A DNA stretch of 64,000 bases from Leifsonia williamsii (GTDB lineage Bacteria > Actinomycetota > Actinomycetes > Actinomycetales > Microbacteriaceae), in the NCBI RefSeq assembly GCF_030433685.1, contig NZ_JAROCF010000001.1:2108001-2172000 (forward strand), given 5' to 3'. How positions within the stretch are numbered: position 1 is the stretch's first letter; every line of letters starts with the position of its first letter. The notes below the pieces were generated by a model that saw only the letters and a program-made list of their open reading frames with translations, was not told the DNA's origin and did not search any database. This document shows, piece after piece, positions 12,898-60,849 of this stretch. Both the position numbers and the translations under genes were made by a program.

Positions 12898-12947
12898 TTG
12901 GCGCGACATGCCGCCTCCGCACCCGACCAGACGGCGTGTTGCGCCAA
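12898..12947. repeat. Intergenic palindrome between moeB and moeA (CACGCCG family)
   Basis: Arms TTGGCGCGACATGCCG (12898-12913) and CGGCGTGTTGCGCCAA (12932-12947) pair over 16 bp. The two mismatches become G-U pairs in plus-strand RNA. The loop is 18 bases. The right arm matches the word CAACACGCCG seen at 20098-20139. Confidence 0.75.
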
Positions 12948-20073: not shown

Positions 20074-20097
20074 GCCGCCCGGCTCCCAACGATGTGA

Positions 20098-20139
20098 CGC
20101 AACACGCCGCCCGGGCGAGTGCCCGGACGGCGTGTTGCG
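20098..20139. terminator. Bidirectional palindrome between converging genes (CAACACGCCG family)
   Basis: Arms CGCAACACGCCGCCCGGGC (20098-20116) and GCCCGGACGGCGTGTTGCG (20121-20139) form a 19-bp stem with one mismatch and a GAGT loop. It lies between the PiT-linked gene and the uracil permease. Confidence 0.75.
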
Positions 20140-20157
20140 ACAACTCGATCGGAGGTG

Positions 20158-25768: not shown

Positions 25769-27286
25769 GTGCCCACCGTGAGTTCCACCACCCCCACCCC
25801 GGTCGTCGACGCGTCGGAGAACGTGTCGGATGTGCCGCACGCCGAGCCCGACGGCCGGCCGACCCGGGTCGAGACCGACTCGCTCGGCAGCCGCGAGATC
25901 CCCGCCGACGCGTACTGGGGCGTCCACACCTCCCGCGCCATCGAGAACTTCCCGATCGCGAAGCGGCCCATCTCCGTCTACCCCGACCTCGTCGTCGCGC
26001 TCGCCAGCGTCAAGCAGGCCGCGGCCCGCGCGAACCTCGAGATCGGCGTGCTGGAGGAGCACAAGGCGCGGCTGATCGACCAGGCCTGCCAGCTCATCAT
26101 CGACGGCCGGTACCACGACCAGTTCGTGGTCGGCGTGATGCAGGGAGGCGCCGGCACCTCCACCAACATGAACGCCAACGAGGTCATCGCGAACATCGCG
26201 CTCGAGCTCGACGGCCACGAGAAGGGCGACTACGCCCACCTCAGCCCCATCGACGACGTCAACCGCAGCCAGAGCACCAACGACACGTACCCGACCGCGA
26301 TCAAGATCGCCCTCACCTTCGCGCTGGAGCACCTGCTCGACGAGCTCGCGCTGCTGCGCGACTCCTTCCTGCGCAAGGGGGAGGAGTTCCGGCACATCCT
26401 CAAGGTCGGCCGCACCCAGCTGCAGGACGCCGTGCCGATGACCCTCGGCCAGGAGTTCCACGGCTTCGCCACGACGCTGACCGAGGACCACGCCCGGCTC
26501 ACCGAGACCAAGTGGCTGCTCGCCGAGATCAACCTCGGCGCGACCGCGATCGGCACCGGCATCACCGCCGACCCCGGGTACGCGGCGGCGGCGGTCAAGC
26601 ACCTCAACGCGATCACCGGGCTGAACCTCGAGACCGCCCCCGACCTCATCGAGTCGACCAGCGACGCGGGCGCCTTCATGTCGTTCTCCGGCTCGCTGAA
26701 GCGCAGCGCGATCAAGCTGTCGAAGATCTGCAACGACCTGCGGCTGCTGTCGTCCGGCCCGCAGGCCGGTCTCGGCGAGATCAACCTCCCGCCGCGCCAG
26801 GCCGGTTCGAGCATCATGCCCGGCAAGGTGAACCCGGTCATCCCGGAGGTCGTCAACCAGGTCGCTTTCTCGGTGGCCGGCGCCGACGTGACGGTGACGA
26901 TGGCGGCGGAGGGAGGCCAGCTCCAGCTGAACGCCTTCGAGCCGGTCATCGCGCACTCGCTGCTGCAGAGCATCACGTGGATGGCGCAGGCGTTCCGCAC
27001 GCTGCGCATCAACTGCGTCGACGGCATCACCGCGAACGAGGAGCGCCTCGGCGCCATGGTGGGCTCGTCGGTCGGCGTGATCACGGCGCTGACCCCGCAC
27101 ATCGGCTATGCGGCCGCGGCGGCGCTCGCGAAGTCGGCCCTCCTCACCGGCCGCAACGTCGCCGACCTGGTGGTGGAGGCGAAGCTGATGAGCCGCGCCG
27201 AGGTCACCCACCTGCTCTCCCCGGCCCGCCTCAGCGGCCTGGAGGCGATCACGACCGCGATCCCGATCACCCCGCCGGAGGACTAG
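25769..27286 (+). CDS. aspA: Aspartate ammonia-lyase
   Basis: Interconverts aspartate with fumarate and ammonia. Fumarase/aspartase superfamily signature GSSIMPGKVNP, with GGAGTSTNMNANEVIAN and RSQSTNDTYPTAIKIA as the other active-site regions. 505 residues, with about 35 extra N-terminal residues rich in Thr, Pro and Val. GTG 25769 is chosen, after GAGAGGCAAC. A second GTG at 25778 is possible. Aspartase rather than fumarase is favoured by the overall resemblance of the N-terminal domain (SREIPADAYWGVHT). Ends in a large palindromic gap. Confidence 0.9.
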   Translation: MPTVSSTTPTPVVDASENVSDVPHAEPDGRPTRVETDSLGSREIPADAYWGVHTSRAIENFPIAKRPISVYPDLVVALASVKQAAARANLEIGVLEEHKARLIDQACQLIIDGRYHDQFVVGVMQGGAGTSTNMNANEVIANIALELDGHEKGDYAHLSPIDDVNRSQSTNDTYPTAIKIALTFALEHLLDELALLRDSFLRKGEEFRHILKVGRTQLQDAVPMTLGQEFHGFATTLTEDHARLTETKWLLAEINLGATAIGTGITADPGYAAAAVKHLNAITGLNLETAPDLIESTSDAGAFMSFSGSLKRSAIKLSKICNDLRLLSSGPQAGLGEINLPPRQAGSSIMPGKVNPVIPEVVNQVAFSVAGADVTVTMAAEGGQLQLNAFEPVIAHSLLQSITWMAQAFRTLRINCVDGITANEERLGAMVGSSVGVITALTPHIGYAAAAALAKSALLTGRNVADLVVEAKLMSRAEVTHLLSPARLSGLEAITTAIPITPPED

Positions 27287-27306
27287 GGCGGCCCTGCCGC
27301 CTGCGT

Positions 27307-27499
27307 GCGCAACTCCGGAGGCGGCGCGGCCTGCGGCCGCCGCCCCCGGAGTTGGGCGCGTTCGCGCGGCGTGTCGCGTCGAATCTCCGTAATTGCACGC
27401 GTGGTCGCCATTTCCGGAGTGTTGCCACGACACGCCGCGCAAGCGCGCGCAAGTCCGGCGATGCGGGGCGAGGGAGGCGGAGCCTCCGGAGTTGCGCGC
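27307..27499. repeat. 193-bp composite of nested palindromes between aspA and an alpha/beta hydrolase
   Basis: The outermost arms GCGCAACTCCGGAGGC (27307-27322) and its complement (27482-27497) match perfectly over 16 bp. Inside them lie a separate hairpin at 27310-27354 (17-bp arms, 1 mismatch), a perfect 13-bp pair GCGCGGCGTGTCG / CGACACGCCGCGC (27364-27376, 27428-27440), and a third hairpin at 27445-27499. Several alternative folds are therefore possible. It fills a convergent gap with no gene. Confidence 0.85.
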
Positions 27500-27509
27500 G
27501 CAGCCCCGA

Positions 27510-28415
27510 CTACTCAGCGGCGCGGAAGAGCGCGAGCATGTCGCGGCCGAGCTGGTGCGGCGCCGTCTCGCACGGGCTGTGCCCGGTGCGGTAGACCGCG
27601 AGCCGCGCGCCGAGGACGCGCGCGTTCCTCGCGTGCAGGTACGTGGGCCACAGGTCGTGGTTGCCGGTCGCGACCAGCACCGGCACCCCGCTCGCCGTCA
27701 CCTGCGCGCGCACGTCGGGCACGCGCTTCATCAGCCCGACGATGTCGTCGACGCTGGAGCGGCGGGTCAGCGCGAAGCGCGAGCGCACGAAGTCGAGGCG
27801 GTTCGGTGGCACGCGGTTCTTGTTCGTGACGATGCCCCAGATCATCAGCCCGCCCGCGATGCGGCCGCCCACGAACCAGCTGAGCGGCCCGATGAACCGC
27901 ACACCCCGGAACGCCTGTCCGGGCTCGGGCGGAGAAGTGAGCAGGGTGAGGCTGCGGAACAGCTCCGGCTGCCGGACCAGGGCCAGCTGCGCGAGGATCC
28001 CGGCGAACGAGTAGCCGAGCACATGCGCCGGACCGCCGTCGCGGAGGAAGGCGAGGAGGTCTGCGACGAGCAGCTCGTACGTATATCGGCCTCCTGCGAC
28101 CGGCCCCGCCTCCGCCGACTCGTACTGTCCGGCGAGGTCGAAGCTCTGCACGTGGTACCCGGCGGAGACGAGGATGGGCGCGAGCAGGTAGAAGTCCTCC
28201 TTCGACCCGGTCACGCCAGGGACGAGCACCACGCGCGGGTCGGACGGGTCGCCCAGCGAGGCGACCGCGAGCTCGCCGCTCGGCGCGCGGAAGCGCGAGA
28301 ACACGGTGCCGACCGGTGCGATCGACCAGTCGATGTCGGGCAGCGCGGCGTCGAGGCGCGCAGCCTCGTCGTCGCCTCCTCCGGCCACTCCCGGCCGGCG
28401 CTCACCGATGGACAC
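27510..28415 (-). CDS. Alpha/beta hydrolase (301 aa)
   Basis: Serine hydrolase fold. VVLVPGVTGSKEDFYLLAP carries the oxyanion-hole region, GYSFAG the nucleophile elbow, VATGNHDLWP the acid and the GHSPCE region the histidine. No signal peptide. GTG 28415 is chosen because TAGCGT is 6 bases upstream and there is no ribosome-binding site. No adjacent pathway identifies its ester or amide substrate; it is transcribed alone, and converges on aspA. Confidence 0.85.
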   Translation of the reverse strand: MSIGERRPGVAGGGDDEAARLDAALPDIDWSIAPVGTVFSRFRAPSGELAVASLGDPSDPRVVLVPGVTGSKEDFYLLAPILVSAGYHVQSFDLAGQYESAEAGPVAGGRYTYELLVADLLAFLRDGGPAHVLGYSFAGILAQLALVRQPELFRSLTLLTSPPEPGQAFRGVRFIGPLSWFVGGRIAGGLMIWGIVTNKNRVPPNRLDFVRSRFALTRRSSVDDIVGLMKRVPDVRAQVTASGVPVLVATGNHDLWPTYLHARNARVLGARLAVYRTGHSPCETAPHQLGRDMLALFRAAE

Positions 28416-39772: not shown

Positions 39773-39859
39773 CAACTCCGGAGATCGCGGTCGACACGCC
39801 GCCGCCGTACCGGAGAAGCAGGCCGCGGCCCGGCGTGTCGGCGCGCGCCTCCGGAGTTG
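39773..39859. repeat. 87-bp nested palindrome after rpsO (CAACTCCGGAG + CGACACGCCG)
   Basis: Outer arms CAACTCCGGAG (39773-39783) and CTCCGGAGTTG (39849-39859) and inner arms CGACACGCCG (39792-39801) and CGGCGTGTCG (39831-39840) are both perfect. Unpaired spacers of 7-8 bases separate them. Same building blocks as 27307-27499. It lies in a convergent gap. Confidence 0.85.
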
Positions 39860-44878: not shown

Positions 44879-44890
44879 CCCCGCTGGGCA

Positions 44891-44906
44891 ACCGCCGAGT
44901 ACGCGG
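44891..44906 (+). repeat. Extra copy of the terminator arm after pnp
   Basis: ACCGCCGAGTACGCGG repeats the left arm of the downstream palindrome 30 bases earlier and could form an alternative pairing with the right arm. Confidence 0.5.
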
Positions 44907-44918
44907 ATAATCGCCCCG

Positions 44919-44959
44919 AAACCGCCGAGTACGCAGACTGTCTGCGTACTCGGCGGTTT
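44919..44959. terminator. Terminator of pnp: perfect 20-bp-arm palindrome with T-tract
   Basis: AAACCGCCGAGTACGCAGAC (44919-44938) and its exact complement (44940-44959) flank a single T. On plus the right arm runs into TTTTT. It is also the 3' end of the converging Lrp gene. Confidence 0.85.
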
Positions 44960-44960
44960 T

Positions 44961-45425
44961 TCATGTGTCGCGGGTGAGGAGCTGGCGGAGGCGGTAGGGG
45001 ATCAGCTCGCCCATGTCGAGCGAGGTCTCGGCGCGGTCGACGCCCTCCACCGCTTGGATCAGGCCGGTGATGCGGAACAGGTCCTCCGCGTCGACGCACA
45101 CCACGCGCAGCAGCAGGTCGTACGGCCCTGAGATGCCGTGGGCCTGCACGATCTCGGGGATGCCGGCCAGTGCCTCCACCACCTCCGCCAGCATCTGCTG
45201 CCGCACGTGCACGGTCACGAAGGCCGCGAGCGGGTATCCGGCGGAGCGCGCGCTGATGCGGCGCTCGAACGACAGGAAGACGCCGTTGCGCTCCAGCTCG
45301 GCCACCCGCGCCTGCACGGTGTTGCGGCTGAGGCCGAGGCGGTCGGCGAGCGAGACGTTGGTCGACCGCGGGTCGTCGGCGAGGGCGACGAGGATGCGGC
45401 GGTCGGTGCTGTCGAAGCTGCGCAT
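44961..45425 (-). CDS. Lrp/AsnC-family transcriptional regulator (154 aa)
   Basis: N-terminal helix-turn-helix (DDPRSTNVSLADRLGLSRNTVQARVAELE) and C-terminal RAM ligand-binding domain (VHVRQQMLAEVVEALAGIPEI...SGPYDLLLRVVC). TAGGTT lies 7 bases before the ATG. Divergent from a 2-oxoacid dehydrogenase operon, the same arrangement as BkdR-controlled branched-chain operons in other bacteria, so it likely responds to branched-chain amino acids. Confidence 0.92.
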   Translation of the reverse strand: MRSFDSTDRRILVALADDPRSTNVSLADRLGLSRNTVQARVAELERNGVFLSFERRISARSAGYPLAAFVTVHVRQQMLAEVVEALAGIPEIVQAHGISGPYDLLLRVVCVDAEDLFRITGLIQAVEGVDRAETSLDMGELIPYRLRQLLTRDT

Positions 45426-47765: not shown

Positions 47766-49169
47766 TGCCGGTCAAGGACTTCGCCCTGCCCGACCTCGGC
47801 GAGGGGCTGACCGAGTCGGAGCTCGTGAGCTGGCGCGTCGCCGTGGGCGACAGCGTGAAGCTCAACCAGATCATCGCGGAGGTGGAGACGGCGAAGGCCC
47901 TCGTCGAGCTCCCCGCGCCCTATGACGGCCGCGTGTCGCGCCTGTACGTGGAGCCCGGAGTGACGGTCGCGGTGGGGGAGCCGCTCGTCGCGATCGAGGT
48001 GGGGGACCTCGAGGAGGCTCCGGAGCCGACCCTCGTCGGGTACGGCGCGCGGCCCGACGCGTCCGGCGGCGGCCGCGCGCCGCCCGCGGCCCGGGCTGGC
48101 GGCGCCCGCCACGTCCGTGCCCGCGACCGCCCACCCCGAGCCCGCGGCCGCCCACCCCGAGCCCGTGAAGGCCCACCCCGAGCCCGCGACAGCGGGGTCC
48201 CGACACGCCGTGTCGGACATCCACGAGACGGCGCGTCGGGACCCCGCTGCGGCGCCCGCCGCGCCCGCGGCGGCGACGGCCGTGGCGGAGCGGCCGCGTG
48301 CGACGCCGCCGGTGCGCAAGCTCGCGCGCGAGCTGGGCGTCGACCTGGTGAGCATCGCCGGCACCGGTGACCGCGGGCTCATCACGCGACACGACGTGGA
48401 GGCTGCGGGAGGCGCGGCTCAGGCCGGGCCGACGGCGGCGGCGGCGGAGGCGACGCCGGCCACCACCGGCCGCGAGCGCCGCATCCCGATCAAGGGCGTA
48501 CGCAAGGCGACCGCCGACGCGATGGTGCGCAGCGCCTTCACCGCGCCGCAGGCCACCGTGTTCCTGACCGTCGACGTGACGCCGACGATGGAGCTGCTGG
48601 AGCGGCTGCGCGCCCGTCCCGACCTCGCCGATGCCCGCCCCGGGCTGCTGGCCGTGGTCGCGAAGGCGCTCTGCCTCGCCCTGCGACGGACCCCGGCGGC
48701 CAACGCCCGCTGGGACGACGCCGCGCAGGAGATCGTCGAGTTCGACGACGTGCACCTCGGGATCGCGGCGGCGACGCCGCGCGGACTCCTCGTCCCGGTG
48801 ATCCGCGACGCGCACGCACGCGACCTCGCCGACCTCGCCGGCGCGATCCGCAGCCTCGCCGAGACCGCACGGGCCGGACGGACTCCGCCCGCCGAGCTGA
48901 GCGGCGGCACCATCACGATCACGAACGTCGGTGTGTTCGGCGTCGACGCGGGCACGCCCATCCTGACGCCGGGGGAGGCCGCCATCCTCGCGCTCGGGGC
49001 CGTCCGCCGTCAGCCGTGGGAGCACGACGGCGGCATCGCGCTGCGCCAGGTCGTCACGCTCGCGCTGTCGTTCGACCACCGGATCGTGGACGGCGAGCAG
49101 GCGGCGCGCCTCATCGCCGACATCGGGCGCATCCTGAGCGAGCCGGGGTCGGTGCTGACGATGGTGTGA
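47765..49169 (+). pseudogene. Dihydrolipoamide acyltransferase (E2), frameshifted in the linker
   Basis: The N-terminal lipoyl domain (ALPDLGEGLTESELVSW, lipoyl lysine in VETAKALVEL) is read from the ATG at 47765. The peripheral-subunit domain (PVRKLARELGVDL) and the catalytic domain with SFDHRIVDGEQ are read one base later, up to 49169. The frames cross between about 48062 and 48090 in a C/G-only run. The net change is one extra base or two missing. Both halves are well conserved, so a sequencing error or recent mutation is more likely than decay. The linker has three HPEP repeats and a 58-bp palindrome at 48191-48248. An internal GTG at 48117 could start a truncated acyltransferase. Confidence 0.85.
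48191..48248. repeat. Palindromic element inside the E2 coding sequence
   Basis: AGCGGGGTCCCGACACGCCG (48191-48210) and its near-complement (48229-48248, one mismatch) flank an 18-base loop. The left arm shares GGGGTCCCGACACGCCG with the intergenic copy at 60758-60810. It encodes part of the interdomain linker. Confidence 0.8.
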
Positions 49170-52836: not shown

Positions 52837-52859
52837 CGAGGCGTCCACCGGCTTGCGCA

Positions 52860-52926
52860 GCCGTCGAGTACACGAAGAATGCGCGGAATCACGACGATTC
52901 CGCGCATTCTTCGCGTACTGGGCGGC
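52860..52926. terminator. 31-bp-arm palindrome in a convergent gap
   Basis: Arms 52860-52890 and 52896-52926 pair with 3 mismatches around ACGAC. The inner 18 bp (CGAAGAATGCGCGGAATC) are perfect. The outer part contains GAGTACACG, close to the GAGTACGC of the pnp terminator. Confidence 0.8.
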
Positions 52927-52956
52927 TTCTCTGCTCGGCGGCTGCCGGGCGCACGG

Positions 52957-60742: not shown

Positions 60743-60757
60743 CGCGACAACGACAGA

Positions 60758-60810
60758 AGGGGTCCCGACACGCCGCTCGCCCTGCGCGGGCGCTGCGTGT
60801 CGGGACCCCT
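60758..60810. terminator. Palindrome with GGGGTCCCGACACGC arms in a convergent gap
   Basis: AGGGGTCCCGACACGC (60758-60773) and its exact complement (60795-60810) enclose a 21-base loop with its own GCCC/GGGC pairing. Same family as the copy inside E2. Confidence 0.8.
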
Positions 60811-60849
60811 CTGCGTTCGCCGGCGGGACCGGCTCTCAGCGGTCGCCTT

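Follow-up and report, generated by a model that had tools for sequence, protein, structure and literature searches.

The gap between two convergent genes in this Leifsonia williamsii DNA contains two copies of element A, an intergenic family of about 84 bases from some bacteria of the Leifsonia group that is apparently undescribed; no account of it was found in the open-licence literature, and nine papers that contain its exact words look unrelated, judging by title. We give roughly even chances to the reading that element A is a protein-bound, orientation-free boundary element at gene 3′ ends, mainly between convergent genes, with a putative protein as its partner. Palindromes dispersed at gene ends are frequent among bacteria, yet it is seldom clear if they act as hairpins in RNA, as sites for proteins or as parasites. 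The genus offers two families with a common word and the same kind of gap, only one of which bears clear pairing selection.

Element A is identified by three CTCCGGAG-type words and one CGACACGCCG word—the C word—at fixed distances. For Leifsonia, the architecture reads AACTCCGGA-N9-CGACACGCCG-N13-second AACTCCGGA-like word-N25-TCCGGAGTT, mostly over 84 or 85 bp. In the window—the whole stretch of 64,000 nucleotides that was analysed—copy 1 lies at 27311–27394 on the minus strand (84 bp; profile match 45.0 bits, E 4.6e-13), with word 3 at 27311–27319, the CGACACGCCG word at 27367–27376 and a degenerate word 1 (AATTACGGA) at 27386–27394. Copy 2 follows at 27410–27493 on the plus strand (84 bp; 55.1 bits, E 3.4e-16), with a degenerate word 1 (ATTTCCGGA) at 27410–27418, CGACACGCCG at 27428–27437 and word 3 (TCCGGAGTT) at 27485–27493. 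Both sit between an aspartase/fumarase-type lyase gene (25769–27286, plus strand; Pfam Lyase_1 1.6e-90), called aspA in the sequence-only reading, and an alpha/beta hydrolase gene (27510–28388, minus strand; Abhydrolase_6 9.2e-11). The third copy, at 39774–39858 (85 bp), is almost symmetric and is matched by the profile on both strands (52.2 and 40.7 bits); it carries AACTCCGGA at 39774–39782, CGACACGCCG at 39792–39801, CGGCGTGTCG at 39831–39840 and TCCGGAGTT at 39850–39858, between the convergent genes of rpsO (S15) and LtrA.

The sequence-only reading had described the aspA gap as one nested structure. The palindrome is real: perfect 16-bp outer arms (GCGCAACTCCGGAGGC at 27307–27322, inverse at 27482–27497) and an inner 13-bp pair (GCGCGGCGTGTCG at 27364–27376, inverse at 27428–27440) can be read directly in the sequence, as can the nested recurrence of both words at 39773–39859, and a repeat search joins all of the aspA-gap structure as one arm pair of 95 nt at 75%. 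It is nevertheless made of two directional 84-bp copies placed head to head with 15 bp between them; the first words, on the inside, are degenerate, and the third words, on the outside, are perfect.

The spacing of the words is conserved well beyond the window. With at most one mismatch, the third word is found at a total length of 84/85 in 17 of 21 matches of G000, 35 of 37 of L. poae, 8 of 10 of G156, 4 of 11 of G157 and 4 of 7 of G162 (two more at 83); it is seen in none of the 8 matches of G163. Two other genera carry elements of 73–75 bp: all 15 matches of G026 have the third word, again at one mismatch or less, at 73/74 and all six of G142 at 74/75. The length gap between genera is about 10 bp, one helical turn, which is suggestive only. 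Copies selected at length 84 with at most two mismatches (53 in number) align over 100 columns without a gap, and the distances 34, 41 and 75 bp recur between exact CAACTCCGGAG copies in the genome. From lineage to lineage the words themselves change together—L. poae has AACTCCGGAa and G163 has AACGCAGGAG—and for the subclade of G161 and G163 the first word is now AACGCAGGAG or similar with CGACACGCCG unchanged. A mirrored CGACACGCCG word is found in Agromyces and also in the copy at 39774. Spacers are mostly dissimilar between copies; about 12 bases 3′ of the C word are, as judged by eye, largely common to copies of the G150/G162/G151 lineage, so the spacers are not wholly free.

The genome of 3.89 Mb holds 28 exact CAACTCCGGAG matches against none in the reversed control, and the bipartite word AACTCCGGAG-N8-CGACACGCCG has 25 matches at up to three mismatches against none in the control, a few of the three-mismatch ones looking incidental. 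Single words with one mismatch are near background in the window (7 matches against 3.9 expected for AACTCCGGAG, 44 against 41 for CGACACGCCG); the signal comes from exact copies, from the constant spacing and from the genome as a whole. An exact scan for the bipartite word over 84,980 species, with one genome each, returned 57 stretches. Leifsonia, Agromyces and Cryobacterium cheniae account for 45 of them; the other 12 come from unrelated taxa and were treated as incidental. In evenly drawn samples of the bacterial family such matches are rare: the inverted pair occurs in 2 of 150 genomes and the bipartite word in 6 of 299, the genome studied here being counted. The words were thus sought both in this genome and in related Microbacteriaceae, and the earlier claim of a recurrent family holds up. 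Background frequency, or a lack of excess of intergenic inverted pairs, had been named as evidence against it; neither was found, because the family recurs, is present in relatives, is intergenic and lies mostly between convergent genes.

Across 28 Leifsonia genomes, the profile separates 13 rich (16–102 matches) from 15 poor ones (0–8) in a bimodal copy number, a split drawn after the counts were known, whereby one palindromic copy may score twice and counts may be low since at most 146 candidates were scored per genome. Some poor genomes have clear matches (best E 5.5e-14 in G160, 3.9e-7 in G169, 3.8e-6 in G154). When placed on a tree built from aspA and mfd DNA, the rich species require six changes, and a single clade for them is rejected (p-AU 0.0005). 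The element positions listed for G000, G156 and G166 look spread by eye, with terminus and macrodomain sites considered.

Gene context was read from gene calls by our own codon-usage script. Once identical cores and the 12 loci from unrelated taxa had been removed, 79 of 124 elements lie between convergent genes, 35 in tandem gaps and 5 in divergent gaps; 3 fall within a called gene and 2 at the edge of a locus, with at least one copy (L196) counted twice at two lengths. Counted per gap within the same loci, 58 of 88 gaps with an element are convergent versus 17 of 142 without (p = 2e-17), and 3 of 88 versus 49 of 142 are divergent (p = 4e-9). Within tandem gaps, 20 elements run opposite to the genes and 15 in the same direction, and no orientation bias relative to the genes is clear. 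Pfam confirms Mfd, RecO and LeuA among the neighbours, and at the recO/leuA genes copies also stand in G000, in G157 and at two more loci. At two Agromyces loci (L063 2847–3593 and L201 2680–3594), a small gene lies between element copies about 1.1 kb from each other, and its protein clusters with a protein near a G000 element; L009 2023–2508 was noted alongside, and the Pfam matches of the L063 and L009 genes are weak, just below the cut-off (DUF559 5e-4 and REase_MTES_1575 5e-7, respectively).

Divergence was compared at 14 orthologous loci in the species pairs G150/G162 and G157/G165, chosen from the matches listed, whereby only words unused for detection were scored and one detection by words 1 and C and five by words 2 and 3 were removed for gaps. 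For the 21 elements found by words 1 and C, 20 of 189 positions of word 3 and 32 of 294 of word 2 (its parts giving 12 of 105 and 20 of 189) are divergent, versus 201 of 879 in the spacers. For the 25 found by words 2 and 3—a loose scan that may include non-elements—word 1 diverges at 14 of 220 versus 233 of 1048 spacer positions. In this second set, the C word (CGACACGCCG) does not differ from those spacers (46 of 250, p = 0.2). CTCCGGAG-type words hence diverge at no more than half the spacer rate in orthologous copies and are, therefore, constrained after insertion.

An array of protein sites fits these data because the words are constrained, the spacing is fixed, the spacers are freer, no orientation bias is clear and there is no overall selection for pairing; together with the convergent position, this makes a two-way boundary the most likely role. 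On this view, a DNA-binding protein specific to the lineage would recognise the words as double-stranded sites and assemble over all 84 bp, forming a complex that may act in both directions as a transcription roadblock, a termination aid or a topological insulator. The element has probably spread as a repeat and was then kept by constraint on its words; patchy occupancy of species and of gaps makes a repeat-like spread likely. A more specific form of the boundary reading is that a lineage-specific putative protein reads three palindromic words plus a core word over 84 bp and seals convergent ends, in a system with tens of sites that species gain and lose—a picture that we offer tentatively, as one that may well be wrong.

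One rival holds that element A is a selfish non-autonomous repeat, similar to a MITE or REP, whose words are recognition sites for a transposase and whose place at gene ends is where insertion does the least harm; a bias toward gene ends and convergent gaps could also arise if insertions elsewhere are purged. This would account for the patchy distribution with rich species outside one clade, for copies in a gap of one species that are missing in its relatives, for L. poae gaps that contain several copies one after another and for the palindromic consensus between words 2 and 3. Against it stand the constraint on CTCCGGAG-type words at orthologous sites and the nature of copies within one genome, which by eye share words and spacing and little spacer outside the subfamily stretches. 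A Y1 transposase (RAYT, PF01797), the type of REP systems, has no match in the genome, while 5 of 14 control genomes are positive. Among the proteins neighbouring elements, 475 were clustered, and the 25 largest clusters look like ordinary genes without a transposase, as judged by eye and with a domain search on five neighbours. Phages, plasmids and viral contigs gave no match to element A, and no target-site duplication was seen by eye. We therefore consider a purely selfish repeat rather unlikely.

Alternatively, element A could be an RNA hairpin at mRNA 3′ ends—a terminator or exonuclease block—which is kept as word 1 or 2 pairs with word 3. The 3′-end location suits this idea, the words are by their make-up complementary to one another, and covariation could not show itself in words that do not vary. 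As RNA, two of the three copies in the window have stable folds (z −4.1 and −6.4; −0.6 for the third), and in some relatives the same gap is taken by family B and T-run hairpins. The variable positions, on the contrary, do not covary: for 109 elements under within-lineage shuffles, three of 59 tested pairs reach p 0.01–0.05 and none lower, and RNAalifold on 53 elements gives five pairs, four of them invariant, with a covariation term of 0.02. Shuffling the spacers does make the folding poorer (native mean z −0.95, se 0.14, 102 elements). Column permutation of 89 elements, however, leaves the folding energy much the same overall (native −39.98, permuted −39.79, sd 0.36; 21 of 60 permutations as low), and, therefore, the extra stability sits in the consensus and not in each element. 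The excess is explained by the partly palindromic consensus, which is compatible with a past or weak pairing role. Element-specific spacer pairing is absent overall, lineage G150 being the exception as the only one of seven sets to beat all its permutations (0 of 60 as low). In the 75-bp class, one flank pair pairs beyond expectation (17 of 18, z 4.0, without lineage control). A central hairpin CTCCG-N6-CGGAG, convincing by eye, was rejected as it does not covary within lineages. The assertion that the arms are selected for pairing is, hence, not borne out.

The hairpin idea also meets the absence of a T run. No intrinsic terminator with a GC-rich stem and T run was found in 27200–27600, and Rfam gives no match in the window at gathering score, three sub-threshold matches to viral and miRNA models looking like chance. 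Furthermore, a fixed length of 84/85 bp with long unpaired spacers is needless for a hairpin. Overall, an RNA hairpin seems unlikely to be what maintains element A. The gap had earlier been guessed to be a bidirectional terminator, a nucleoid-protein site or a small non-autonomous repeat; as a simple intrinsic terminator the first is improbable, and the best fit is a protein site, or a dispersed repeat that has become a boundary. An apparently ordinary intrinsic terminator lies elsewhere in the window, at 44919–44964—a 20-bp perfect inverted repeat between convergent genes that ends in TTTTT, with a near copy of its left arm 5′ of it at 44890–44912—so the genome uses that type too. A 51-nt inverted repeat (76%) at 52840–52946, with GAGTAC and GATTCCGCGCATTCTTCG words, is perhaps another intergenic repeat family.

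A similar pairing test does detect covariation in family B, which consists of the C word CRACACGCCG and its inverse at a short distance. It occurs in 20 of the 28 Leifsonia genomes with up to 46 per genome, the control giving one match per strand, in one genome. Spans among the matches listed are 37 bp for 68 copies, 38 bp for 62 and 36 bp for one, in a set of 131 that includes 19 from G172, 6 from G162 and none from G000 and leaves out one duplicate and five matches of G153 and G161; two G161 copies outside the set span 28. With within-genome shuffling, the loops of the 38-bp class covary (e.g., pair 14:25, 41 of 62 versus 25.5 expected), and the signal of the 37-bp class is weak. Covariation is strong in the outer arms (e.g., −5:+5, 33 of 35 versus 19.5 expected) in a test that pooled genomes and included one flank with N. 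Family B copies are true hairpins because their arms covary. Like element A, they carry the CRACACGCCG word, stand at gene ends (of 32, 19 lie in convergent gaps, 10 in tandem gaps and 1 in a divergent gap, and 2 within a called gene), have a nearly fixed span of 37/38 bp and can fill the same gap; unlike element A, their arms covary and they are abundant also in species poor in element A. In the window, a family B hairpin spans 20083–20154 in a convergent gap, with CAACACGCCG at 20100–20109 and its inverse at 20128–20137 (RNA fold z −7.0). Further hairpins of C word plus inverse, with spans of 37/38 and matching outer arms, lie at 12899–12946, 48185–48254 and 60754–60813, the last in a convergent gap; their copies at 12904, 48201 and 60766 have one mismatch in one word.

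Comparison of single gaps across relatives suggests that families A and B have a related, though not indispensable, job at gene ends. For the mfd gap, recognisable A words were seen by eye in 10 of 13 rich genomes (partial in G165 and G171) and in none of the 15 poor ones, five of which carry family B there. The aspA/hydrolase gap, which has two A elements here, was followed by eye: G161 has an A variant and G163 a fragment, G155 carries a family B hairpin, a T-rich hairpin occurs in G156 and in G169, and another hairpin in G157, G160 and G165. In G150, G162 and G166 the gap is short, with neither A nor B nor other hairpins by eye, and in several other relatives a different gene lies downstream of aspA. 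Element A is not indispensable at this gap, as some rich congeners have none there. The hairpin at L211, L209 and L214 (G157, G160 and G165) is common to the three and in G165 reads GGGGCACGTCGTTGTCGCTTT...AAAAGTGACAACGACGTGCCCC.

Finally, it is very improbable that the words are of the DNA-uptake type, with inverted pairs that also serve as terminators: complementary uptake signals in close spacing are reported to form terminators (PMC2267715), but the genome has only 28 word copies in 3.9 Mb, and in the 14 stretches examined by eye other element words lie close by.

Together with families A and B, related rich and poor species provide a natural experiment on the sealing of convergent genes, and the 84-bp element might serve as bait for finding the putative protein.

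Several known systems invite comparison. Integron attC sites carry RYYYAAC...GTTRRRY cores in cassette arrays; the flanks gcgCAAC...GTTGcgc mismatch this consensus and the element sites are dispersed, and site-specific recombination cores and uptake signals were both dropped for mismatching features. In Neisseria and Haemophilus, inverted pairs of uptake signals act as terminators. Uptake signals number above a thousand, far more than the 28 word copies here. These terminators share with element A an inverted word at gene ends and differ in copy number, composite architecture and spacing. Copies of BOX/RUP and MITE-like families share most of their sequence, whereas copies of element A have mainly words and spacing in common, with neighbouring L. 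poae copies and the stretch 3′ of the C word in the G150 lineage as exceptions. Pneumococcal BOX/RUP and MITE-like small interspersed repeats are short and dispersed (PMC3049150). Element A was not filed as a REP because a Y1 transposase and pairing selection were both looked for and not found; its arms are, G150 excepted, not maintained by pairing overall, and it further departs from REP/BIME in its fixed 84/85-bp multi-word architecture, its freer spacers and its words. Nevertheless, REP/BIME is the nearest known kind. The REP/BIME sequences of Escherichia coli are short dispersed intergenic inverted words, frequently between convergent genes, and are reported to bind gyrase, Pol I and IHF (PMC1525189); element A likewise consists of dispersed intergenic inverted words that lie mostly in convergent gaps.
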